Assembly (NCBI GenBank): GCA_012841375.1
Contig: DUUV01000015.1
Coordinates: 1-36,363, forward strand
Origin: Candidatus Fermentithermobacillaceae bacterium
GTDB taxonomy: Bacteria; Bacillota; Sulfobacillia; Fermentithermobacillales; Fermentithermobacillaceae
Length of the DNA stretch: 36,363 nt
Reading direction: 5' to 3'
Shown: positions 7,334 to 25,351 of the stretch, piece after piece
Numbering within the stretch: position 1 is the stretch's first letter
Layout: each line of letters starts with the position of its first letter
Translations under genes and position numbers: made by a program
The notes under the pieces: model-generated
Seen by the model: the letters and a program-made list of their open reading frames with translations, nothing else
Told to the model about the DNA's origin: nothing
The model's database searches: none

Positions 7334-9058
7334 TCAGACGCTTTCGCCCGCGAACTCCTTGGTCATCTTCTCTATGTCGGCTTCCTCTATCCTCTTGAAC
7401 AACACCGGAGGGACCTCGAATGGACGTCCAGGACCGAGAACCCTGAGGTCGCCTACCTGCGCCATGGAGACCGCCGCCTCTTCAGGCTTAAGCCCGAGCG
7501 CTCGCGTCACCCTTTTTGAGGTGAACGGGATGAACGGCGACGAAGCCAGGGCGAAGGTCCTCACCAAGTTGATGCACGTGCGGAGGACCATAGCTGCCTC
7601 GTCTCTGTCGGTCTTAAGTAGGCTCCAAGGCGCTCTCTCGTCGATGTAGAGATTTCCGAGAGACCACAGTTTCTTGAGTGCGAGGACACCCTTACGGAAC
7701 TCCATCTGCCGCAGGCACTTGCGATACTCTTCGAGAGCCTCGTTCACGTCCAGCTGGAGTCGTTCCTCTCTGGGGCTCCATTGGCCGCCTCCCGGGATGC
7801 CTCCGCCCTCAAAGCGCGACGCCGTGAGCTTCAGGGTCCGGTTGACGAAGTTCCCGAAATTCCCTGCCAGGTCCTTGTTTACGATTGTGGCGAACATGGG
7901 CCAGGTGAAATCGGAATCATCTGATTCCGGAGCGATGGCCATCAGGAAGTAGCGCCAGTAGTCGGGCGGGAAAATCTCCAGCGCCCTGTCGGTAAAGACA
8001 CCCCGCTTTCGGCTGGTGGAGAACTTGCCTCCGTGGTACGTGAGCCAGTTGAATCCTTTGATGTAGGAAGCCATGGTCCAAGGCTCTCGAGTTCCAAGGA
8101 GCATGGCGGGGAAAATGACGGTGTGAAACGGCAGGTTGTCTTTGGCCATGAACTGGGCGTAATGCACGTCCGAAGCGCCGAACCACCAGGACTTCCAGTC
8201 GCGTGTGCCGGGTTCACCCGAGCCGTCCTGAACCGCGTCATCTAGTAGCTTCGCCCATTCCCAGGTCGCCCCGATGTACTCGATAGGGGCGTCGAACCAC
8301 ACGTAAAACACCTTTCCCTCGTAACCCTCGCGCGGCACGGGTATCCCCCATGACAAGTCCCGGGTGATGCACCTGGGCTGGAGGCCTTCGTTCAGCCACT
8401 TCTTGGCCACGCCGCTGGTCAACCTCGGCCAGTCGGTGTGGGAGTCAACCCATTTTTCGATTTCGGGCGCCAGGAGATCAAGCCTTATGAAGAGGTGCTT
8501 GCTTTCCCGCATCTCAAGGTTGGTGCTCCCGGATATGGCGGAACGCGGCTCGATCAGGTCTTCGGGATCCAAGAGAGAGGCGCACCCATCGCACTGATCT
8601 CCCCGGGCGGCCTCGTACCCGCACTTGGAGCAAGTCCCGATGACGTATCTGTCGGGAAGAAAACGCCCGTCTTCGAGAGAGTAGATCTGACGGATGGTCC
8701 GTTCCTCAATGAAGCCGTTCTCGTTCAGCTTCAGGTAGATGTGCTTGGTCAGTTCGGCGTTCTCTCTGGAAGAACTCCGTCCGAAGTGGTCGAAAGAAAG
8801 CCCGAAGCGTCGGTAGATGTCCTTTTGACGCTCGTGCATCATGTCGCAGTACTCTCTTACGTCCATCCCGGCTTCCATGGCGGATACTTCCGCCGGGGTC
8901 CCGTGCTCGTCGGTCGCGCAGATGTACAACACTTCCTCGCCCTCCATCCTCAAGAAACGGGCATATACATCGGCGGGAAGCATCGAGCCGACCAGGTTTC
9001 CAAGATGCTTCACTCCATTGACATAAGGCAGGGCACTGGTTATCAGGTAGCGTGGCAC
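7334..9058 (-). CDS. metG: Methionyl-tRNA synthetase
   Basis: Charges tRNA-Met with methionine in the cytoplasm. The class I signature appears as HLGN near residue 18. A four-Cys zinc cluster (C143, C146, C156, C159) lies in the connective domain. The KMSKS loop is KFSTS (K345). The length (574) and lack of a C-terminal EMAP-like tRNA-binding domain indicate a compact form. The four-Cys cluster and KFS loop resemble the archaeal/MetRS2-like class more than Bacillus MetRS1. The start chosen is the GTG at 9058, 8 nt after AAGGAG, giving the typical PRYLITSALPY N-terminus; the GTG at 9067 is only 1 nt from that RBS. It is transcribed divergently from the ABC operon. Confidence 0.96.
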   Translation of the reverse strand: MPRYLITSALPYVNGVKHLGNLVGSMLPADVYARFLRMEGEEVLYICATDEHGTPAEVSAMEAGMDVREYCDMMHERQKDIYRRFGLSFDHFGRSSSRENAELTKHIYLKLNENGFIEERTIRQIYSLEDGRFLPDRYVIGTCSKCGYEAARGDQCDGCASLLDPEDLIEPRSAISGSTNLEMRESKHLFIRLDLLAPEIEKWVDSHTDWPRLTSGVAKKWLNEGLQPRCITRDLSWGIPVPREGYEGKVFYVWFDAPIEYIGATWEWAKLLDDAVQDGSGEPGTRDWKSWWFGASDVHYAQFMAKDNLPFHTVIFPAMLLGTREPWTMASYIKGFNWLTYHGGKFSTSRKRGVFTDRALEIFPPDYWRYFLMAIAPESDDSDFTWPMFATIVNKDLAGNFGNFVNRTLKLTASRFEGGGIPGGGQWSPREERLQLDVNEALEEYRKCLRQMEFRKGVLALKKLWSLGNLYIDERAPWSLLKTDRDEAAMVLRTCINLVRTFALASSPFIPFTSKRVTRALGLKPEEAAVSMAQVGDLRVLGPGRPFEVPPVLFKRIEEADIEKMTKEFAGESV

Positions 9059-9105
9059 GGTGAACACTCCTTAAGAAGCCGGATCCAGCCCGGGGGCTTT
9101 CTGCG

Positions 9106-9134
9106 ATCGTAGGTTGCGCGCGAACAGGTGTCAA
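9106..9134 (-). promoter_or_regulatory. Sigma-A promoter of metG
   Basis: On the minus strand a perfect TTGACA (9134-9129), a 17-nt spacer and TACGAT (9111-9106) predict a transcript start near 9099. The leader of about 40 nt is too short to hold a T-box. Confidence 0.7.
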
Positions 9135-9155: not shown

Positions 9156-9185
9156 ATTGACCGGGTGGTCAATGTCCTGTATGCT
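9156..9185 (+). promoter_or_regulatory. Promoter with overlapping palindromic operator, ABC-tetR-helD operon
   Basis: ATTGACC (9156-9162), GGGT, GGTCAAT (9167-9173) is a perfect 7-bp inverted repeat. Its left arm contains the -35 box TTGACC (9157-9162). A 17-nt spacer leads to TATGCT (9180-9185). A repressor bound here would block RNA polymerase. The TetR protein encoded third in the operon is the obvious candidate. Confidence 0.75.
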
Positions 9186-9226
9186 GACCGTGTGCATCCA
9201 TCCAGACGGAAGGGAGCGCGTGTGCG

Positions 9227-10144
9227 ATGAGCCAACGCCCGGCTGTAAACACCGAGAAACTCACCAAGTATTACGGCAAATCCCGTGGGATAATCGACGT
9301 TGACCTCAGTATTATGGACGGAGAGATCTTCGGCTTCATTGGGCCAAACGGCGCAGGCAAGACCACAACCATCCGGCTCCTTCTGAACTTCATTTTCCCC
9401 ACGGGAGGCAGCGCCACTATCTTCGGCATGGACGCCATACGGGACAGCAAAGGGATCAAGCGCGTGACGGGGTACCTGCCCGGCGACGCCGCTTACTACG
9501 GCGAGCTCCGGGGAAGAGACCTCTTGGAATACGCATCCAGGTTCTATGAAAAGGACTGCCTAGAGCGCGGGAGAGAGCTGGCAGACATATTCGATCTCGA
9601 CCTTGAGAAGCGCATTGAAACTCTATCGCTGGGTAACAAGAAGAAGATCGGCGTCGTCCAGGCACTAATGCACGGGCCCAGGCTGCTCATCCTGGACGAA
9701 CCCACAAGCGGCCTCGACCCACTCATCCAGAAACGGTTCTACGAGGTAATCCTTGAGGAGAACCGGAAGGGAACCACCGTGTTCTGGTCGTCCCACGTGC
9801 TTTCCGAAGTCCAGAAGATGTGCAACAGGGTGGCCATCCTGAAAGAGGGCAGGGTTCTGCGCGTGGAGGAAGTCGAGACGCTACGAAGCAAGCAGCTCAT
9901 GAAGGTTCAAGTTTCGTTCGCCGACCCTAGGGTCGACCTGCCCGAAGAAGTCCAAGGCGTGGTCAACCCGGAGAGGGAAAATGATACCCTCAGGTTTCTG
10001 TTCAGCGGCAACGTGGACTCTCTTGTCAAGGCTCTGGCCAAAACCAATATCAAAGGGTTGCAGATGGAAGAACCGTCTCTGGAAGAAGTGTTCATGCACT
10101 ACTACGAGAGCGACGAACCCGGGCGAAAGGAGGACTCGCGATGA
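9227..10144 (+). CDS. ABC transporter ATP-binding protein (ABC-2 exporter type)
   Basis: Nucleotide-binding subunit of an ABC-2 type exporter, similar in organisation to drug or bacteriocin efflux ATPases (CcmA/BcrA-like). Walker A GPNGAGKTT is at residues 39-47, the signature is LSLGNKKKIG, Walker B plus D-loop is LLILDEPTSGLDP, and the switch His is in SSHVLSE. The C-terminal part of about 90 residues is a regulatory extension typical of this subgroup. An ATG with GGGAG about 10 nt upstream starts the operon. Its stop overlaps the start of the permease (ATGA), so translation is coupled. The substrate is unknown; control by the nearby TetR protein is likely. Confidence 0.93.
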   Translation: MSQRPAVNTEKLTKYYGKSRGIIDVDLSIMDGEIFGFIGPNGAGKTTTIRLLLNFIFPTGGSATIFGMDAIRDSKGIKRVTGYLPGDAAYYGELRGRDLLEYASRFYEKDCLERGRELADIFDLDLEKRIETLSLGNKKKIGVVQALMHGPRLLILDEPTSGLDPLIQKRFYEVILEENRKGTTVFWSSHVLSEVQKMCNRVAILKEGRVLRVEEVETLRSKQLMKVQVSFADPRVDLPEEVQGVVNPERENDTLRFLFSGNVDSLVKALAKTNIKGLQMEEPSLEEVFMHYYESDEPGRKEDSR

Positions 10145-10941
10145 ACATTATTCGTTTTGAGTTCCGGCGAAACCTAAGGTCCTTCCTCATCTGGACTGCC
10201 GCCATCCTCGCCTTCTGCGTATGGATGCTGTCTGTATATGAGTCGTCCTTTTCCGGCCTTGGAGCGGGGATTAACGAGTTCGTCCAATATTTCCCGGAAT
10301 CCATGAAAAAGGCTTTCGGCATCGACCGGCTGGACATCACCACTATCACTGGCTACTTTGGAATGGAGGTCCACCTCTTCATAATCCTTTTCGGCTCCAT
10401 GTACTCCACCCTCCTAAGCTCCAGCCTTCTTTCAAAGGAGGAAAGCGAGAAGACGGTGGAGTTCTTACTGTCGAGGCCGATCACCAGGACGTCCGTGGTC
10501 ACTCAGAAACTGGCGGTGTACGTCATCTACGTGACCCTGTTCTCGATCATCACATGGTCGGTTAGTTACGCGGCGATGCTCCGCTCTGAGTCATCGTTTG
10601 ACAGGGCATCGTTCTGGGCCCTTGGCGGCATGACCTACTTGTCCATTCTGGCCATCGCGTCTCTGGGGTTTCTGGGTTCGGTCTTCGTCACCCGGCACCG
10701 CACGGCCTATTCGGCAGCCCTCGGGCTGGTCCTTGGGCTGTACGCGCTCCAGATCGTATCCGATATCTCCCAGAAAGCGTCGTTCTTGCGATATGTCACT
10801 CCGTTCAAGTGGGCGTCCGCCGCCGACATACTCCCCCGGGGCGGCGTGGACCCTGTCTACGCTGCACTGGCGGCCGGCGTCATCCTTGCCTCGGTCGCAG
10901 GGGCATACAGGGTCTACTCCAAGAAAGACATCGCCGTCTAG
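10141..10941 (+). CDS. ABC-2 type transporter permease
   Basis: Membrane subunit partnering the preceding ATPase. About six hydrophobic segments are visible: near residues 15-31, 75-100, 124-148, 158-182, 189-208 and 236-255. An N-terminal MNIIRFEFRRNLRSF amphipathic stretch is common in ABC-2 permeases. A cytoplasmic LLSKEESEKTVEFLLSRPITR segment is the usual coupling region between early helices. It starts on the ATGA overlap with the ATPase and is followed 18 nt later by the TetR gene. Confidence 0.9.
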   Translation: MNIIRFEFRRNLRSFLIWTAAILAFCVWMLSVYESSFSGLGAGINEFVQYFPESMKKAFGIDRLDITTITGYFGMEVHLFIILFGSMYSTLLSSSLLSKEESEKTVEFLLSRPITRTSVVTQKLAVYVIYVTLFSIITWSVSYAAMLRSESSFDRASFWALGGMTYLSILAIASLGFLGSVFVTRHRTAYSAALGLVLGLYALQIVSDISQKASFLRYVTPFKWASAADILPRGGVDPVYAALAAGVILASVAGAYRVYSKKDIAV

Positions 10942-10959
10942 AGCGAGGAGGGTTCGAGG

Positions 10960-11670
10960 TTGACGCGACGACGCCGGGATTCTAGGCCCGGCCCATTAAC
11001 GCCGCCCTGCGGAGACGCTAGAGATCCCTCCTCCGTAACCGGGACTCGGCCGGGCACTGAAGACAGCCGCCGCCGCATATTGCTGTCTGCGATCCGGGAG
11101 TTCGCGGAGAGCGGCTACACAAAGGCATCCACAAATGCTATAGTTCGGGATGCCTGTACCTCCAAAGGCTTGCTTTTCCACTATTACGGAAGCAAGAAAG
11201 ACCTGTACCTTGCCGCGCTTGAGTACTCCGTCGAGTTCCTGGTTGATTACTTTCTGAAAAACTTAGGCAGGCTGCCGAAAGACCCGGTAGACCGGTTTGT
11301 GGCGTGGGCGAACTTGAAGGTTAGAATGCTCGCGGAAGAACCGCTCATCTACAAAATAACCGTGGGCGGGATTATGGAGGCGCCGGAGGAGATCAGACCG
11401 GAGCTGCAGGCCATGGTGAACCGGGTTGGAGAGCGACTCATGCCCGTATTCCTGAGAGGGATAGACTTCTCCGGACTCCGGAAGGGCATCGATCGGGCGA
11501 AGGCGGTTCAGTACATCCTGTTGGTCTTTGGCGCCTTAGGCGAGAGATACTTGGAAGTGGCGATGAACTCGCCTGACAAAGGCCCTTCCGGATTGCCCTC
11601 GGCCATGGTAGAAATTGAGGAATACGCCGATTTCCTAAAGCATGGGTTATACCGGAACCCGCCGGAGTGA
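10960..11670 (+). CDS. TetR/AcrR family transcriptional regulator
   Basis: Probable repressor of its own operon. The TetR helix-turn-helix lies at about residues 57-82 (TNAIVRDACTSKGLLFHYYGSKKDLY), and the rest is a helical ligand-binding domain with unknown inducer. An unusual Arg/Pro-rich extension of about 35 residues precedes the domain. The TTG start at 10960 is supported by GAGGAGG 8 nt upstream; a later start would remove the extension but no better RBS is visible. Its place in an exporter operon, and the palindrome over the -35 box at 9156-9173, support local autoregulation. Confidence 0.92.
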   Translation: MTRRRRDSRPGPLTPPCGDARDPSSVTGTRPGTEDSRRRILLSAIREFAESGYTKASTNAIVRDACTSKGLLFHYYGSKKDLYLAALEYSVEFLVDYFLKNLGRLPKDPVDRFVAWANLKVRMLAEEPLIYKITVGGIMEAPEEIRPELQAMVNRVGERLMPVFLRGIDFSGLRKGIDRAKAVQYILLVFGALGERYLEVAMNSPDKGPSGLPSAMVEIEEYADFLKHGLYRNPPE

Positions 11671-11699
11671 TTTGAGTAACTGCCAGGGAGGTCCGTCGA

Positions 11700-14255
11700 G
11701 TGATAGACCGGGGCGCCGAGACCACGGCGATTGATGCAGAGCGCAAGCGGCTCCAAGAGGTCCTGAGGGAAATCGTGGACCAGATCGCGGAAGCCGAACG
11801 CCATGTTCAACAGAACAAAGCGGTGGTGACGGGGACCCAGAGTTACATATCCGATGAGTACTACTCGGTCCCCAAGTCCTTCAGCCAGCTCGTCGATCTG
11901 GCGGGAGGCATGAGCGGCTTGAGGCTCGCCGGCCTCATGTACAGGAAGAGCCTTGAGAAGCTCAAGCAGCTCAGGCGTTTGGCCCGTTCGGCGTACTTCG
12001 GGAGGATAGACTTCAGGGAGATCGCAGGGCCCGGCCGCACTGCCGGCGATAGGCAAAACGGGACAGTGCATCCCATCTACATCGGGATGTCGTCTCTCAC
12101 TCGCCAAGATACCGGCGAGCACCTGATATTCGACTGGAGAGCCCCTGTCTCCAGCGTCTACTACGACTACGAGCTCGGAGAGGCCGAATATGAGTCTCCT
12201 GCCGGTACCGTGTTCGGAGAAGTCCTCTTGAAGCGGCACTTCAAGATCAGGGACGGCGAGATCTTGCTCATGTACGATAACGACCTCACCATCTTCGATG
12301 ACATCCTCCAGGAGACACTGGGCAAGGCCACGGGCGACCGCATGAAGGCCATCGTCAACACCATCCAGCGGGAGCAGAACCGGGTTATCCGCGAGGAAGG
12401 GCGCAACCTGCTCCTGGTCCAGGGCTGCGCCGGCAGCGGCAAGACTTCCATAGCTTTGCACAGAGCCGCATACCTCCTCTACAAACACAGGGAGAATATG
12501 AGGGCCGAGGACATCCTGATGATCACTCCAAACCGCATTTTTGAAGACTACATTTCGCCCGTCCTTCCGGAACTAGGTGAGGAACCACTGGTTCAGCTGT
12601 CATTCGCCGACCTCGCGCGAGGGCTGCTGTCGCCAGGACATCCGGAAGTGGACTTGGGAGAGCAAGAACGTGGCGGCCCGGCGGAGCGAGACGGATTCGA
12701 CACGGGACACCTCCCGTACCGGTTGGAGGACTTCGCGGACCAACTTGAGTACCTCTTGGACATGAGGGGCAGGCCGGCGGCTGAGACCCGCTCACAGGGA
12801 ATAAGGCTCAAGTCCGGCGAGGCCTTCGCGCGAGTCCTGGAATCCTACGCGCAACACATTACCTCGGGCGATCTCGGTTTCCCAGGCTTGGTGTTTCGCG
12901 GCCGGGTATTGGTGCCTGCTCAGGAAGCGTCTGACTTGGTATTTAAGGAATACACCTACCTTCCTTTCCTCAAGAGAATCGAGAAGGCCAAGCGAAGGAT
13001 GATGTGGGTTCTCGACCGTGCCCGGGCTAGACGCTATGAGGAGCTCCGCAGGGAGATCGCATCGGATCCAGGGGAAGTCCACCTGCTTGAGAGGGATATC
13101 AAGGAACGGGCGGCCGCCAAGGCATCCCAAGAGTTCGAACCCTTGCGCAGGATTGTTCACTCCTGGAAACCCCTGAACCATAGGGAAGCCTATCAAAGGC
13201 TGTACGCTGAGCCCGGACTGCTCCTCAAAATGCTCGATGAAGCCGCCGCCGGTGACCTGAATGAGGGTCCAAGTCGCACGTTTGACAATGACGTCATTGA
13301 CGCGGTTAGAAGGGACACGCTGGAGCGACTGAGTTCAGGAGTCATCCCCTACGAGGACGTGGGTCCTCTCCTGTACCTCAAAGGCATACTCGAAGGATTA
13401 CCGCAATCGCCCGGTGTCCGCCACTTGATTGTGGACGAAGCCCAGGACTACGGCGCCCTCCAGTTCAGGGTGCTGAGGATGGCTTTTCCCAACGCCTCCT
13501 TTACCGTGCTGGGCGATCTCAATCAGACCCTCAGCCCGGCGAGCCGTTTCGACGGCGGGGAAACGGGCTACGAAGGCGCCATACGGGGACTTGGAGCAGG
13601 CAAGGATACCGAACTCGTGCGGCTCCAACGGAGCTACAGGTCTACGAAAGAGATAACAGAGTTCACCAAGGCCATTCTTAAGGGGGGCCAACCTGTGGAA
13701 CCGGTTGAACGTCCGGGAGAGCGTCCCCTCGTTATCCGGGCCCAAGACCGCGCTTCCCTGGCGCGCTCCATCGCTTCCGACATAAGGAGATTGCAGGGCG
13801 AAGGCTTCCAGTCAATCGCCGTTATCTGCAGGACGGCGCGAGAAAGCTGGACCGCACATGAATCCCTAAAGGCGGAACTGAGCCGGGCAGACGGCAGTCG
13901 GGAGAACAACCGGGACTCGACGGGCGAACCGGAAGACCCGGGCGTGGCAGGCGGTTCCCGCCGAGCGACAAGCAGGATTCGGTTGGTCACCAAGGAGCGG
14001 CGGAAGTTCATCCGCGGCGCGCTCGTGATCCCATCCTATCTGGCCAAGGGTCTTGAGTTTGAAGCGGTCATCATCTACAACGCGGGCGAAGGGTCCTACG
14101 GCAATCCCGACGACAGGTTGGTGCTCTACACCGCCTGCACTCGAGCGCTGCACAGGCTCCATATCTACCATACAGGGCGCCTGACGCCTGTGTTGGCAGG
14201 TATCGACCCATCCTTGTACGATGAAAGATCCGCTGACTGCGATGTATATGGCTGA
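11700..14255 (+). CDS. helD: HelD-like RNA polymerase recycling helicase (UvrD superfamily 1)
   Basis: HelD is a Gram-positive SF1 ATPase that inserts arms into RNA polymerase channels and releases stalled enzyme from DNA. The protein has an N-terminal coiled-coil arm (residues 10-40 and 60-95), then the HelD-typical IYIGMSSL and FDWRAPVSS region (about 126-152). Next come a Q-motif-like IQREQNR, Walker A GCAGSGKTS (242-250), DEAQDY and a C-terminal helicase core with YLAKGLEFEAV. A hydrophilic insertion of about 32 residues sits near 726-757 in the C-terminal core. The GTG start has AGGGAGG 8 nt upstream. It lies 29 nt after tetR in the exporter operon and ends before a strong terminator. 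Some HelD proteins (HelR) protect against rifamycins, which makes the context notable. Confidence 0.9.
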   Translation: MIDRGAETTAIDAERKRLQEVLREIVDQIAEAERHVQQNKAVVTGTQSYISDEYYSVPKSFSQLVDLAGGMSGLRLAGLMYRKSLEKLKQLRRLARSAYFGRIDFREIAGPGRTAGDRQNGTVHPIYIGMSSLTRQDTGEHLIFDWRAPVSSVYYDYELGEAEYESPAGTVFGEVLLKRHFKIRDGEILLMYDNDLTIFDDILQETLGKATGDRMKAIVNTIQREQNRVIREEGRNLLLVQGCAGSGKTSIALHRAAYLLYKHRENMRAEDILMITPNRIFEDYISPVLPELGEEPLVQLSFADLARGLLSPGHPEVDLGEQERGGPAERDGFDTGHLPYRLEDFADQLEYLLDMRGRPAAETRSQGIRLKSGEAFARVLESYAQHITSGDLGFPGLVFRGRVLVPAQEASDLVFKEYTYLPFLKRIEKAKRRMMWVLDRARARRYEELRREIASDPGEVHLLERDIKERAAAKASQEFEPLRRIVHSWKPLNHREAYQRLYAEPGLLLKMLDEAAAGDLNEGPSRTFDNDVIDAVRRDTLERLSSGVIPYEDVGPLLYLKGILEGLPQSPGVRHLIVDEAQDYGALQFRVLRMAFPNASFTVLGDLNQTLSPASRFDGGETGYEGAIRGLGAGKDTELVRLQRSYRSTKEITEFTKAILKGGQPVEPVERPGERPLVIRAQDRASLARSIASDIRRLQGEGFQSIAVICRTARESWTAHESLKAELSRADGSRENNRDSTGEPEDPGVAGGSRRATSRIRLVTKERRKFIRGALVIPSYLAKGLEFEAVIIYNAGEGSYGNPDDRLVLYTACTRALHRLHIYHTGRLTPVLAGIDPSLYDERSADCDVYG

Positions 14256-14274
14256 GGCCTTCGCCCGGTTTCTT

Positions 14275-14310
14275 GAGGAGGTAACCATCGGTGTTGCCTC
14301 CTCCCTTTTT
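14275..14310 (+). terminator. Intrinsic terminator after helD
   Basis: An 11-bp stem (GAGGAGGTAAC with GTTGCCTCCTC, one G-U pair) with a 7-nt loop is followed by CCTTTTT. Confidence 0.88.
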
Positions 14311-21242: not shown

Positions 21243-21282
21243 GTGTTCTCGAAGGAAATTGACTCGGAGAGGAGATGGTCCC

Positions 21283-22149
21283 TTGCTTCCCACTCATGCT
21301 GAGAGTCTTCTCGTTGCCCAGTCCCTCTACAAAGAGTATGACAGACACCCCGTTGTTAGAGATCTGAACTTGGCAATAAGGCCGGGGGAAGTCTACGGAC
21401 TTCTGGGGCCCAATGGTTCGGGCAAGTCGACAACAATCCGGATGCTCACCGGTATTCTGGAGCCCACGTCCGGGAACGTGTCGGTCTCCGGACATGACAT
21501 GAGGCGGGAGCCTGAGAAGGCAAAGGCCTCTCTGGGCTACGTCCCTGATGAACCTGTCCTCTATGAGAAACTCACGGCTTTGGAATTCCTGGACTTCGTA
21601 GGCGAGCTGTACTCGCTGCCGAAATCCTCAAGGCGAGCCGCGATGAACGACACGCTACGCATGCTCGACCTTGAGAACAGGGCCGGCGACCGCATCGAGT
21701 CCTACTCCAGAGGGATGAAGCAGAAAGTCGCCATCTCGGCTGCTCTACTCCACAACCCGCGGGTTCTCATCATGGATGAACCCATCACCGGGTTGGACCC
21801 CATCGCAGTGCGTGTGCTGAAAGGCATGCTCAGGAAGATGGCTAGGTCCGGAGCGGCGATCCTCCTATCGACCCATATCCTGGAGGTGGCGGAACGCCTC
21901 TGCGACAGGATAGGCATTCTAGTAGACGGGTTCCTGATCGCGGAAGGAACCATGGCCGAACTAAGCGCAAAGGCCCCGGAGATGTCTGTGGGCGGGACGA
22001 CTCTCGAAGACATATTCGTGGGACTGGCGGCCGGCGAGGAGCACAAGGACATAATAGCTTCTCTGGAGGCCGAGGAGAAAGAACCTGCAAAACAGGCGGG
22101 AAACGGCGATCTAAGGCCCACCGGACAGGAAAGGAACGTCGGCACATGA
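21283..22149 (+). CDS. ABC transporter ATP-binding protein (exporter with M16 protease operon)
   Basis: Nucleotide-binding subunit of a second ABC-2 type exporter. Walker A is GPNGSGKST, the signature region is YSRGMKQKV, Walker B is VLIMDEPITGLDP, and the switch His is in STHILEV. The C-terminus has an acidic and Gly-rich tail. A TTG at 21283 is chosen since GAGAGGAG lies about 8 nt upstream. A TTG at 21259 is open, but AAGGA is only about 2 nt before it. The stop overlaps the permease start (ATGA). It starts 40 nt after a nucleotidyltransferase pseudogene. Confidence 0.92.
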   Translation: MLPTHAESLLVAQSLYKEYDRHPVVRDLNLAIRPGEVYGLLGPNGSGKSTTIRMLTGILEPTSGNVSVSGHDMRREPEKAKASLGYVPDEPVLYEKLTALEFLDFVGELYSLPKSSRRAAMNDTLRMLDLENRAGDRIESYSRGMKQKVAISAALLHNPRVLIMDEPITGLDPIAVRVLKGMLRKMARSGAAILLSTHILEVAERLCDRIGILVDGFLIAEGTMAELSAKAPEMSVGGTTLEDIFVGLAAGEEHKDIIASLEAEEKEPAKQAGNGDLRPTGQERNVGT

Positions 22150-23900
22150 GAGCCTCCCTGCGCATGCTGTGGATCAGTCTGAAGGTAAGGGTTCGCCTAA
22201 CAAGCCCGACATCGTGGCTCTTCATTGCTATAGCAGCGGTCATTGTGCCGCTGTTCTCCTTCTCTTTGGGAAGCATGGTGGGTATCCCTTCGATGGTGCC
22301 GCAAGACCTTCTGCCGTTCCTCACGGGTTTCCTAAACGTGATCCTTTTCATGCAGATAAGCACTTCTTTCAGTTCGGCTTTCTACCACTTGTACCTATCG
22401 AGGGATCTCCCTCTCCTCTTGGCCTCTCCTTCACGCCCCAGGTCCGTGATACTGGCCAAAATGCTGGAGGTGGCCGGCTCGGGGGTTCTGACCTACCTGG
22501 CTGCGGGAATCCCCTTGTTGGTCGCCTTAGGAAAAGCGTGGTACGCACCTGCATGGTATTACATCCTTGCGGCCGCGGCAGGGCTGCCTTTCGCCATGCT
22601 GCCGACAGTGCTGGCCGTCTTGGCAACTCTTGCGGTGTGCAGGATACTCCCTGCGTACGGAACCAAAGAGATCAGCGCCGCCTTGGGAACGCTGGTCGGT
22701 GGCCTTACGTATTTCTTCTTGCGTGTCGCAGGCTCATCCGAGATGTGGGGTCAGGCCAGAAACCCCTCCCGAGTCTCGCTTTTCTTTGGTAAACTGGGAC
22801 CCTCGTGGTCGCCATCCACTCTCTTGGCCAGGGCCGTCGTTGAAGGTCTGTACGAAAGATGGCTCCCGCTGCTTGCGTCGGGTGTGCTGTTTGCGGGAGC
22901 GACCTTTGGTGTCTTTAGACTCGTTGTAGCGGCGACCGAGAAGGCTTACCTCAGCGGGTGGGCCACATCTCGAGAGGGGCGCAGGGGACGAAAGACCCAT
23001 CCTGTGTTTGACGATCCCGTGCTGGACAGTGCGCCAGGCCGTTTGTCGCGTCCCGCGTTGGGTGACACATCGGACTCCGCCTTGCGTCCTACTCCGGGGC
23101 ACACCGGAGGTCCGGCTACGGATTGCGTCCAACCGGTGAGCAGTGCGATTGGAACGGCAAGAGATCTGGTTCGACCCTCTCGCCTGGCAGTAGAGCTCAA
23201 AGCCCTCTCGGTCGAATCGAAGCTCTTGTTCAGGGACCTTCAGAGCCAATCTCAGCTCTTGTACCTCCTAATCATGATCGTGGCATGGCGGCTCTTCCCC
23301 GGAGGGAACAGGGAGCCTACCGAGAACGGACTGTTTGCCCTGATCCCCTTCTTTTTCCTGGCGCTCAGCGGGTCTAACTCTTGGTCTTTGAAGAACATGT
23401 CTCAAACGGTCCGGATACTCCGGCAGTTACCGTGCGATCCGGCGAGGGTAATGAGGGGAAAGGCCTTCTTCTACGGGATCATCCAAACCGGCTGCATCGC
23501 TTTTCTTGTGGGAGTTCTGAAGACATTTGGACGGTTTAGCGTGAGCGGCTTGCCTGTCCTCGGCACCCTGTGGACTGCCCTGTCCTTTTCCACATCTGCG
23601 ACCACAGTGGCCGCTGCTGCTTACAGACCGGAGGTATCGTCGGCCACAGGGATCCCGAGGCTCGACTTGGGAGCAGGCGTTGCCGCATTCTTGGCAAACA
23701 TAGTCCTCTGCGTGATTTCCGGTTTTCTGTATGTGGGTGCGCTGACCCAGTCGTCTCCTGTCGTTGTCTGGGTGTTCACGGGAATTGCGCTGGCAGTGAA
23801 TGCCGTCGCCTTTGTCATCGCCACGAATATGGCCGGGAACATGACAAGAAGCTCCCCAACGGCAGTGAGCTCCAGCCCGGGAACGGGGGGATCGAAGTGA
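22146..23900 (+). CDS. Large ABC-2 type exporter permease
   Basis: Membrane subunit for the preceding ATPase, 584 residues, about twice a simple ABC-2 permease. An N-terminal half with about six hydrophobic segments (residues 20-255) and a C-terminal half with about six more (about 375-570) suggest a fused or duplicated layout like that of large exporter permeases. The halves are separated by a hydrophilic Pro/Ser/Asp-rich linker at about residues 278-340. The start is on an ATGA overlap. Its last codons overlap the GTG of the M16 gene (GTGA), so all three genes look translationally coupled. The substrate is unknown; the coupled protease hints at a peptide. Confidence 0.85.
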   Translation: MRASLRMLWISLKVRVRLTSPTSWLFIAIAAVIVPLFSFSLGSMVGIPSMVPQDLLPFLTGFLNVILFMQISTSFSSAFYHLYLSRDLPLLLASPSRPRSVILAKMLEVAGSGVLTYLAAGIPLLVALGKAWYAPAWYYILAAAAGLPFAMLPTVLAVLATLAVCRILPAYGTKEISAALGTLVGGLTYFFLRVAGSSEMWGQARNPSRVSLFFGKLGPSWSPSTLLARAVVEGLYERWLPLLASGVLFAGATFGVFRLVVAATEKAYLSGWATSREGRRGRKTHPVFDDPVLDSAPGRLSRPALGDTSDSALRPTPGHTGGPATDCVQPVSSAIGTARDLVRPSRLAVELKALSVESKLLFRDLQSQSQLLYLLIMIVAWRLFPGGNREPTENGLFALIPFFFLALSGSNSWSLKNMSQTVRILRQLPCDPARVMRGKAFFYGIIQTGCIAFLVGVLKTFGRFSVSGLPVLGTLWTALSFSTSATTVAAAAYRPEVSSATGIPRLDLGAGVAAFLANIVLCVISGFLYVGALTQSSPVVVWVFTGIALAVNAVAFVIATNMAGNMTRSSPTAVSSSPGTGGSK

Positions 23901-25351
23901 GAAGCCGCCTTCTACGCCCCAGGGCGATACGGCTCTTCTTAATGGCAGCCACAGTCCTGTCATTATCCCTAGGCGCGATTCCGCAAGAAGTTGCCGCCCA
24001 CTCTTTATTGCCCGGCTACTCTTTGTTCGAGATAAACGGCGTCAAGGTCTACTTCCGAAAGCCACCAAGCGAGGAAAGAGCACAACTTGCCCAAATCGGA
24101 GCGATCATGATGGCCGGCATTGGAAACCAAGAGCCGGATGAGGCCCACTGCGCTCACATGGCCGAGCACATGGTGTGTATGTATCCCGGTCCATCCGGCG
24201 AGTCCGTGTGGTCGATATCGGCAAAGGACTACCAGTTAGGAAGTCCTTTGCCGCTCAATGGACATGTAAGCCTTGACACCACTGAGTGGGCCGTTTCGGC
24301 CGCCCACAGCGATACCCTCCGGGTCCTCACGGCCCTCTTAGGTTCCATGTTCAGAAGCACTCTGGAGTCCGACGAGGCCTTCAAGACCGAGATAAAGCGC
24401 GCTCGCCGTGAAGTAGATGCCATGACCGGAAGCGATATTACGGCCCTCGCCAACAAGATGAAGGCCTCGGCATTCCACGGGACAAGGTACTACGAGACCC
24501 TGTTCGAAACCCCACTACCGGAAGTTACCGCCGAAAAGATCCGGGGCTTTATAGAGAGGGAATACACACCGGCCAGGCTTACGCTGATCATCGCGGCTGA
24601 CGTGGACGAAAGCGAACTCCTTAACCACATTGCGAGATGCCTGGTAGGTATTGACCCGGGGAGAGGACCTGCCGACCACTCAGACGTCTACCTCGATCCC
24701 CCTTCCCAGGCAACGCTTGAAGTCGGAGCAAAGAAGCAATATGCCGGTCTGGCAGTCGGTATCTCGCGGATTCTTCCTGAAGACAGGCCCACCGTCCTGG
24801 CCCTCCTAAACATCCTGACGAGGCGCCTGTATGCAGTCCCCCAAACGGGATCCATCAGGTTTCTCAGGGATTTGCACACGATCTTTGTAGCCCAGAGCGC
24901 TCTTGTGGCAACCTACGGCTACACGGACGCCCGGGGTTCGGACATGAGTTCTGAGGTTCAGCGTTACCAGGAGGCGCTCTCGTCGATCCTGGCGTCTCTG
25001 GCTTCAGACGGACCCAGCATGGAAGAGCTGTCCTACTACGTGATACCCGGCACACCGCGCGTTTCGGTAGATCTATCCTCTATTCCCTATGCCGGGGCGT
25101 CACAGACAGTGTCCACTCTCTTGTACAACGGCCTCATGGAGACCTCAATCTGGGACCGGGCAGAGGCCTACCCAGAAGAAACGCGAAAAATCCTCAAAGC
25201 GGCAGCCGCCAAGTACCTCCCGAACGCCAAGATCACGGTGGTATACCAGAAGCAGCCGTCCAACTCCGGAACAGTGTTGGGGCTGAGCATTGCAGCTCTC
25301 ACTGCGTGCATCGCTTTGGGCGTCTTTTTCTGGCGGAGGGCGACCGTATGA
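23897..25351 (+). CDS. Secreted, membrane-anchored M16 family metallopeptidase
   Basis: Zinc peptidase of the M16 (pitrilysin/insulinase) family acting outside the membrane. Residues 1-35 form a signal peptide or anchor (RLFLMAATVLSLSLGAIPQ, then VAA). The inverted zinc motif HxxEH is intact at H87, E90, H91. E165 and E172, spaced seven apart, fit the downstream catalytic Glu and third zinc ligand. A C-terminal hydrophobic helix (about 460-478) followed by RR anchors the tail. At 484 residues it is a single M16 unit. The GTG start overlaps the permease stop; the frame is open further upstream but that part is permease antiframe. Coupling to an ABC exporter recalls peptide-maturation operons. 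Confidence 0.85.
   Translation: MRSRLLRPRAIRLFLMAATVLSLSLGAIPQEVAAHSLLPGYSLFEINGVKVYFRKPPSEERAQLAQIGAIMMAGIGNQEPDEAHCAHMAEHMVCMYPGPSGESVWSISAKDYQLGSPLPLNGHVSLDTTEWAVSAAHSDTLRVLTALLGSMFRSTLESDEAFKTEIKRARREVDAMTGSDITALANKMKASAFHGTRYYETLFETPLPEVTAEKIRGFIEREYTPARLTLIIAADVDESELLNHIARCLVGIDPGRGPADHSDVYLDPPSQATLEVGAKKQYAGLAVGISRILPEDRPTVLALLNILTRRLYAVPQTGSIRFLRDLHTIFVAQSALVATYGYTDARGSDMSSEVQRYQEALSSILASLASDGPSMEELSYYVIPGTPRVSVDLSSIPYAGASQTVSTLLYNGLMETSIWDRAEAYPEETRKILKAAAAKYLPNAKITVVYQKQPSNSGTVLGLSIAALTACIALGVFFWRRATV

Follow-up and report, generated by a model that had tools for sequence, protein, structure and literature searches.

We were interested in why a gene for the RNA polymerase recycling motor HelD stands directly behind an ATP-binding cassette (ABC) exporter and a TetR-family repressor in an uncultured Candidatus Fermentithermobacillaceae bacterium, and whether the repressor governs them all. 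The window analysed is contig DUUV01000015.1 of assembly GCA_012841375.1 (positions 1 to 36,363 of the forward strand; 36,363 nucleotides). Its source genome (2.37-Mb assembly, G000) was compared with three congeners (G001, G002 and G003), with the sister genus (G007) and with further genomes of the class. An earlier note on positions 9156 to 14310 had proposed one operon in which drug-type efflux, a ligand-sensing repressor and polymerase rescue combine in a two-layer response to a polymerase inhibitor. The regulatory half of this proposal is well supported by the sequence comparisons given here, and its defence half weakly. Exporter and helD are probably switched on together in this small genus of uncultured bacteria, and we consider it likely that an exporter cassette with its own repressor landed ahead of a helD already in place and now controls it. 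Overall, familiar parts are connected in a new way at this locus, and within a narrow lineage.

Gene order and a predicted operator

Open reading frames (ORFs) and Pfam/NCBIfam profiles gave the head-to-tail order ABC ATPase, ABC-2 permease, TetR and class I HelD at 9227-14255, and all four families claimed for the operon are present. Both an ABC_tran protein and an ABC-2 membrane subunit are encoded, as expected for an ABC-2 exporter, and the repressor combines a TetR_N helix-turn-helix (HTH; PF00440) with matches to the all-helical TetR fold. The genes follow each other at distances of -4, 18 and 29 bases, the first reflecting a 4-base overlap of ATPase and permease and the last separating tetR from a genuine helD. 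One promoter, overlapped by a perfect palindrome, precedes all four genes, in agreement with the earlier note. The palindrome at 9156-9173 is the sole match in the window even when up to three mismatches are allowed, and the only perfect copy in the G000 assembly. The promoter agrees with the consensus at 9 of 12 bases only; yet G003 has its two hexamers at the same positions, again 17 bases apart, and G001 has the same -10 box. G003 retains the palindrome without mismatch and G001 with one, while half of it is deleted in G002; in the alignment of G003 and G001, operator, spacer and -10 box are conserved amid varying neighbouring intergenic sequence. The four genes would form one transcript from the promoter at 9157.

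Behind helD, the earlier note had claimed a strong terminator. The stem at 14275-14303 folds well (z -3.66; 0/200 shuffles as good), but terminator-like sites as a class occur at chance level in the region (5 observed, 5.4 expected), and a counterpart was not evident by eye in the congeners. In G001 (stretch L031, 3880-3960, minus strand) an OYE-family oxidoreductase gene follows about 30 bases after the end of helD, no terminator is apparent between them, and the OYE gene may therefore belong to the transcript there.

The same predicted operator precedes related cassettes of the class

The strongest new result of the analysis is the shared operator footprint. A search for TetR relatives in 101 genomes led to 12 from outside the genus at E <= 1e-20; nine of their loci were fetched, eight of them testable, as one (G058) ends at a contig edge. 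All eight cassettes, from other families of the class, carry TTGACC-N4-GGTCAA without mismatch no more than 400 bases ahead of an ABC or TetR start. In G038, G069 and G057 a perfect site lies about 2.1-2.4 kb upstream of tetR (for G038 and G069 from the site listing alone); the contig of G016 begins inside the ATPase gene, and in G050 TetR comes first. Compared with the window, the cassettes of G042, G025, G071 and G039 are 51-62% identical in the ATPase, 34-55% in the permease and 31-45% in TetR, and a HelD query gave no match within the fetched loci. A perfect TTGACC-N4-GGTCAA is present anywhere in 51 of 154 class genomes, and with this base rate the coincidences of site and cassette are not chance. 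As the same 12 bases precede 8/8 testable related cassettes, the palindrome is almost certainly the operator of the window TetR and of a widespread ABC-permease-TetR cassette.

Probable insertion of the cassette upstream of a resident helD

The earlier note had suggested comparing tetR-helD synteny across Bacillota; among the loci compared, it was seen in this genus only. In named genomes 127 HelD stretches were confirmed, and of the best 80 (neighbours callable for 79; L101 unresolved) three had TetR-helD adjacency, all from congeners, and the three TetR_N domains among 46 co-directional upstream neighbours are the same congeners; a weak TetR-like ORF (E 0.003) upstream of helD at L126 lies on the opposite strand. 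The closest HelDs in named genomes (66-76% identity) belong to three Candidatus Fermentithermobacillaceae records. HelD is patchy in the order (5/17 genomes). In the sister genus the locus reads YigZ-GNAT-metG remnant-helD-OYE and lacks the cassette, and no permease relative was found in the G007 genome at E <= 1e-5. Since the G007 helD holds the same locus without the cassette, a resident helD with later insertion in this genus is favoured over cassette loss in G007, but not proven.

In such an insertion, the ABC ATPase-ABC-2 permease-TetR cassette would have landed between a second methionyl-tRNA synthetase gene (metG) and helD in the ancestor of the genus, and helD would have become its fourth gene. 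TetR would bind ATTGACC-N4-GGTCAAT over the -35 box and repress the whole transcript, tetR included. A ligand, perhaps hydrophobic or acyl as with the nearest TetR folds, would free TetR, upon which exporter, repressor and HelD would rise together. HelD might then act as an ordinary class I protein, entering the secondary channel, freeing the stalled RNA polymerase of nucleic acid and leaving with ATP.

Table 1. Features of the helD locus in the window
Feature	Position	Strand	Basis and remarks
Second methionyl-tRNA synthetase gene (metG)	7334..9067	-	ORF and profile matches; divergent from operon
Predicted promoter of divergent second metG, TTGACA-17-TACGAT	9106..9134	-	Scan; -35 about 22 bases from operator
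Predicted TetR operator, perfect palindrome ATTGACC-GGGT-GGTCAAT	9156..9173		Overlaps -35 box and spacer
Predicted operon promoter, TTGACC-17-TATGCT	9157..9185	+	Consensus scan; hexamer positions and spacer same in G003
ABC exporter ATPase subunit	9227..10144	+	ORF; PF00005 71.6 bits, cut-off 25
ABC-2 permease (ABC2_membrane_2)	10141..10941	+	ORF; PF12679 85.3 bits, cut-off 27.2
TetR-family repressor	10960..11670	+	ORF; PF00440 43.7 bits, cut-off 24; TTG start; N-terminal extension before HTH
Candidate internal promoter within tetR, TACACA-17-TATAGT	11116..11144	+	Scan; TG before -10; may be chance
helD, class I RNA polymerase recycling motor	11700..14255	+	ORF; NF041464 HelD_BACSU 610.9 bits, cut-off 419
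Intrinsic terminator-like stem, T-rich tail	14275..14303	+	Scan and folding; after helD

For the divergent second metG a GTG start at 9058 is likelier, judged by the Shine-Dalgarno spacing, and its predicted promoter recurs in G003 and G002 (scan) and in G001 (alignment). The encoded protein is 27% identical to that of the other methionyl-tRNA synthetase gene of G000. Three genomes of genus g4 that were checked have the second type only, and G004, G007 and G014 the other type only; the metG remnant beside the G007 helD is of the second type. Elsewhere in the window (21259-25351, plus strand) there is another ABC ATPase, accompanied by an ABC_tran_2 membrane protein and by an overlapping ORF that resembles M16-type peptidases.

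Decay of the exporter beside an intact tetR and helD

The exporter is broken in two of the four species (G001 and G002), and tetR and helD are open in all four. The G002 deletion extends from the middle of the operator to about permease codon 100, so that the right operator half, the -10 box and the entire ATPase gene are gone; a close ATPase copy was not found elsewhere in that genome. In the ATPase fragment of G001 the Walker A lysine 45 is replaced by N, codon 117 is an in-frame stop and the contig ends at codon 144, and the remainder of the gene is nowhere in the G001 assembly; the permease match, which begins near codon 68, is preceded by three 53-base repeats and by what looks by eye like an RNase P RNA gene. 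A contig break alone was rejected as the cause of this loss, given the stop and the changed lysine. The repeats (L031 7828-8007) are direct, spaced by 63-64 and situated between the permease stump and the apparent RNase P RNA gene. In G041 (L179 6340-6925), one of the eight testable cassettes, an operator stands directly ahead of an ATPase gene missing residues 1-112, a second instance of 5' truncation of the exporter with the operator retained. The TetR HTH is well conserved, and the ratio of nonsynonymous to synonymous substitution rates (dN/dS) was 0.10-0.17 for HelD and 0.12-0.25 for TetR; this shows past constraint on both, which, with dS at 0.9-1.5 and thus near saturation, is not datable to after the exporter loss. 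Decay of the exporter next to intact tetR and helD indicates that the exporter is not a stable partner.

The same pattern bears on a passive placement, in which helD would be a housekeeping copy that owes most of its transcription to an internal or read-through promoter, with the cassette functionally unlinked to it. HelD outlasts both exporter loss and operator loss, G007 has helD and no cassette, and the presence of HelD in only 5 of the 17 genomes of the order indicates that neither partner is essential. The window copy is moreover the only HelD in G000 and may simply be the housekeeping copy; the earlier note had regarded a sole, constitutively expressed helD as fatal to its proposal, and the first half of this objection applies, no separate copy being found elsewhere in the genome. 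The candidate promoter inside tetR (11116-11144) would supply the transcription; it has a counterpart in G001 and none in G003 or G002, and this lack of conservation in all four species, the close spacing of tetR and helD (29 bases), and the intact tetR beside helD in 4/4, unlike the exporter, argue against passive placement, which we judge somewhat unlikely.

Several points nevertheless weigh against control of helD by the inserted cassette. The possible internal promoter in G000 and G001 is one of them. In G002, tetR and helD stay open despite the damage to promoter and operator, so control by a promoter of the 9157 type is not needed there. Perfect sites are absent from the site listing for the TetR relative G086:C2, and the weaker relative G034 (E 1.9e-17) also has none. 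Finally, the broken loci of G001 and G002 are known from single metagenome-assembled genomes and may reflect assembly error.

Exporter substrate and TetR ligand

The designation as drug-type efflux was not supported, as the ATPase scored 190.1 bits in the DrrA-type model TIGR01188 (cut-off 312.45). An AlphaFold2 model of TetR from four sequences (mean predicted local distance difference test, pLDDT, 74.5) had TM1030 as its nearest solved structure by both sequence and fold (about 22% identical); one TM1030 entry holds octanol, and the acyl-CoA regulators FasR and FadR, with acyl-CoA, follow further down the fold list. The nearest solved ATPase by sequence is Rv1218c, whose TetR regulator RaaS (Rv1219c) responds to oleoyl-CoA (excerpt of PMC4155686). 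From these folds and from RaaS, a hydrophobic or acyl ligand is plausible, no more. The same evidence would suit export of an endogenous lipid or metabolite, with TetR sensing an acyl-CoA-like ligand and HelD belonging to a growth-phase or membrane-stress programme instead of an antibiotic response. This is unlikely in our view: TetR ligand domains diverge fast, an identity of about 22% to TM1030 says little on the ligand, Rv1217c is a far larger permease, and the operon holds no lipid gene.

HelD class and rifamycin as a cue

By NCBIfam score, predicted fold and DWRAP motif, the window HelD is of class I. It scored 610.9 bits in HelD_BACSU (NF041464; cut-off 419), and membership of the HelR group was rejected from both HelR models (NF041254, 124.4 against a cut-off of 750; NF041258, 153.2 against 1100). 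The DWRAP motif is present, with D145, W146, R147 and P149 invariant in 50 HelDs, and DWR[A/S]P without the extra residue of class III denotes class I (excerpt of PMC8655204). The superfamily 1 (SF1) motor motifs G242, A244-T249 (Walker A) and D579-Q582 (DEAQ) are likewise invariant in these 50. An AlphaFold2 model from 50 sequences (mean pLDDT 84.4) showed two long antiparallel helices (4-53 and 61-96), as expected for the secondary channel arm, with a pLDDT of at least 77 in each block of ten between residues 11 and 100; by fold it best matched chains 6wvk and 6zca of B. subtilis HelD. As to the primary-channel loop, expected to be lacking in class I, the overall model and the class scores lean towards class I.

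Class I HelD of B. subtilis shields polymerase from rifampicin and is itself rifampicin-induced (excerpt of PMC12802891), which would agree with a two-layer response in which TetR senses an inhibitor of the polymerase, for instance a rifamycin, the pump exports it and HelD frees the polymerase. A mild excess of exporter genes near helD elsewhere points the same way: in co-directional runs, ABC ATPase genes made up 9/148 genes within two genes of other helD loci and 13/708 further off (Fisher p 0.007; the three congener loci and L101 excluded, related loci counted separately, one locus twice, and kinship uncorrected). Individual arrangements in unrelated Bacillota are HelD-ABC-ABC (L146, Paenibacillus cremeus), HelD-ABC-DUF1854-ABC (L098, L145), HelD-MarR-ABC (L162) and ABC-HelD (L137). 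HelD-ABC adjacency as a general rule was rejected, the excess being mild and the individual cases too few and partly related.

RpoB argues against a rifamycin. Of 154 class genomes, 141 were matched by a pattern spanning its rifampicin region, and in E. coli numbering all 17 genomes of the order have E516 and A526, save G008 with S526, so that rifampicin-contact positions are changed; D516 is present in each of the other 124, and H526 in all of these but three, which have N526 (list read by eye). The RpoB hits of G000 (rpoB stretch L217) fall in a single open frame. D516Y and H526Y are resistance changes in E. coli (excerpt of PMC13404664). A literature search on H526A found no paper, so we infer from the role of these positions that E516/A526 would confer resistance. 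B. subtilis HelD no longer protects from rifampicin once its arm-tip residues D56, D57 and E60 are mutated (excerpt of PMC12802891), and the aligned tip of the window HelD and its three congeners is about four residues shorter and has no acidic residue, a state not unique to them (8 others of 67 aligned HelDs). A consensus of the rifamycin-associated element (RAE) gave no match with three or fewer mismatches. The convergent rifampicin alarm consists of a sense and an antisense promoter that face each other ahead of the gene at a distance of 45-100 bp (excerpt of PMC12802891); a simple consensus scan of the intergenic region, the motif search of that paper not being run, gave a divergent pair only. 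Because of the RpoB residues, the membership of class I and not of HelR, the tip without acidic residues, and neither RAE-like site nor convergent pair being seen, rifamycin is disfavoured as the trigger. With the exporter broken in two of four congeners, the two-layer response is also not supported as a selected unit, and we consider it quite improbable.

Just as improbable is a ligand-gated HelD, in which the sole RNA polymerase rescue factor of these bacteria, placed under the exporter's repressor, would act only in the presence of a non-rifamycin compound that stalls the altered polymerase and is also pumped out.

Comparison with known systems

Control of helD by the repressor of an inserted cassette would be a clear-cut example of regulatory capture through gene insertion, its intact and decayed states displayed by four species; and as RpoB of this order is altered at two positions that contact rifampicin, a purpose of HelD beyond rifamycin is directly testable. 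The cassettes of the class (e.g. G042, G025, G071 and G039) share operator and gene order with the window cassette, and their loci gave no HelD match. In the efflux pair Rv1217c-Rv1218c of M. tuberculosis, ATPase and permease likewise have a neighbouring TetR regulator, RaaS; this unit is not known to include a HelD, and Rv1217c is a much larger permease than that of the window. TM1030 of Thermotoga maritima is the best sequence and fold match of the window TetR, but at 22% identity only; it adjoins ABC ATPase and permease genes, and no HelD is known beside it.

HelR and the other class II HelDs of Streptomyces and mycobacteria are homologous RNA polymerase motors, but the window HelD is closer to class I in sequence and fold (HelR scores of 124-153 against cut-offs of 750 and 1100) and no RAE-like site was seen with the consensus used. 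With B. subtilis HelD (PDB 6WVK, 6ZCA) it shares the class, the top fold match, the N-terminal coiled coil, DWRAP and the SF1 motifs, and differs from it in the shorter arm tip without acidic residues. No tetR-helD operon is described in the open-licence literature searched. The excerpted sources describe known helD control as rifampicin-linked, by RAE in Actinobacteria and by convergent promoters in B. subtilis (PMC10719064, PMC12802891), where helD stands behind two such promoters, whereas in the window helD comes last of the four genes of a TetR/ABC operon with a predicted repressor operator at its head. If helD indeed sits behind the exporter's own repressor, its control logic would be unlike that of these rifampicin-linked promoters.

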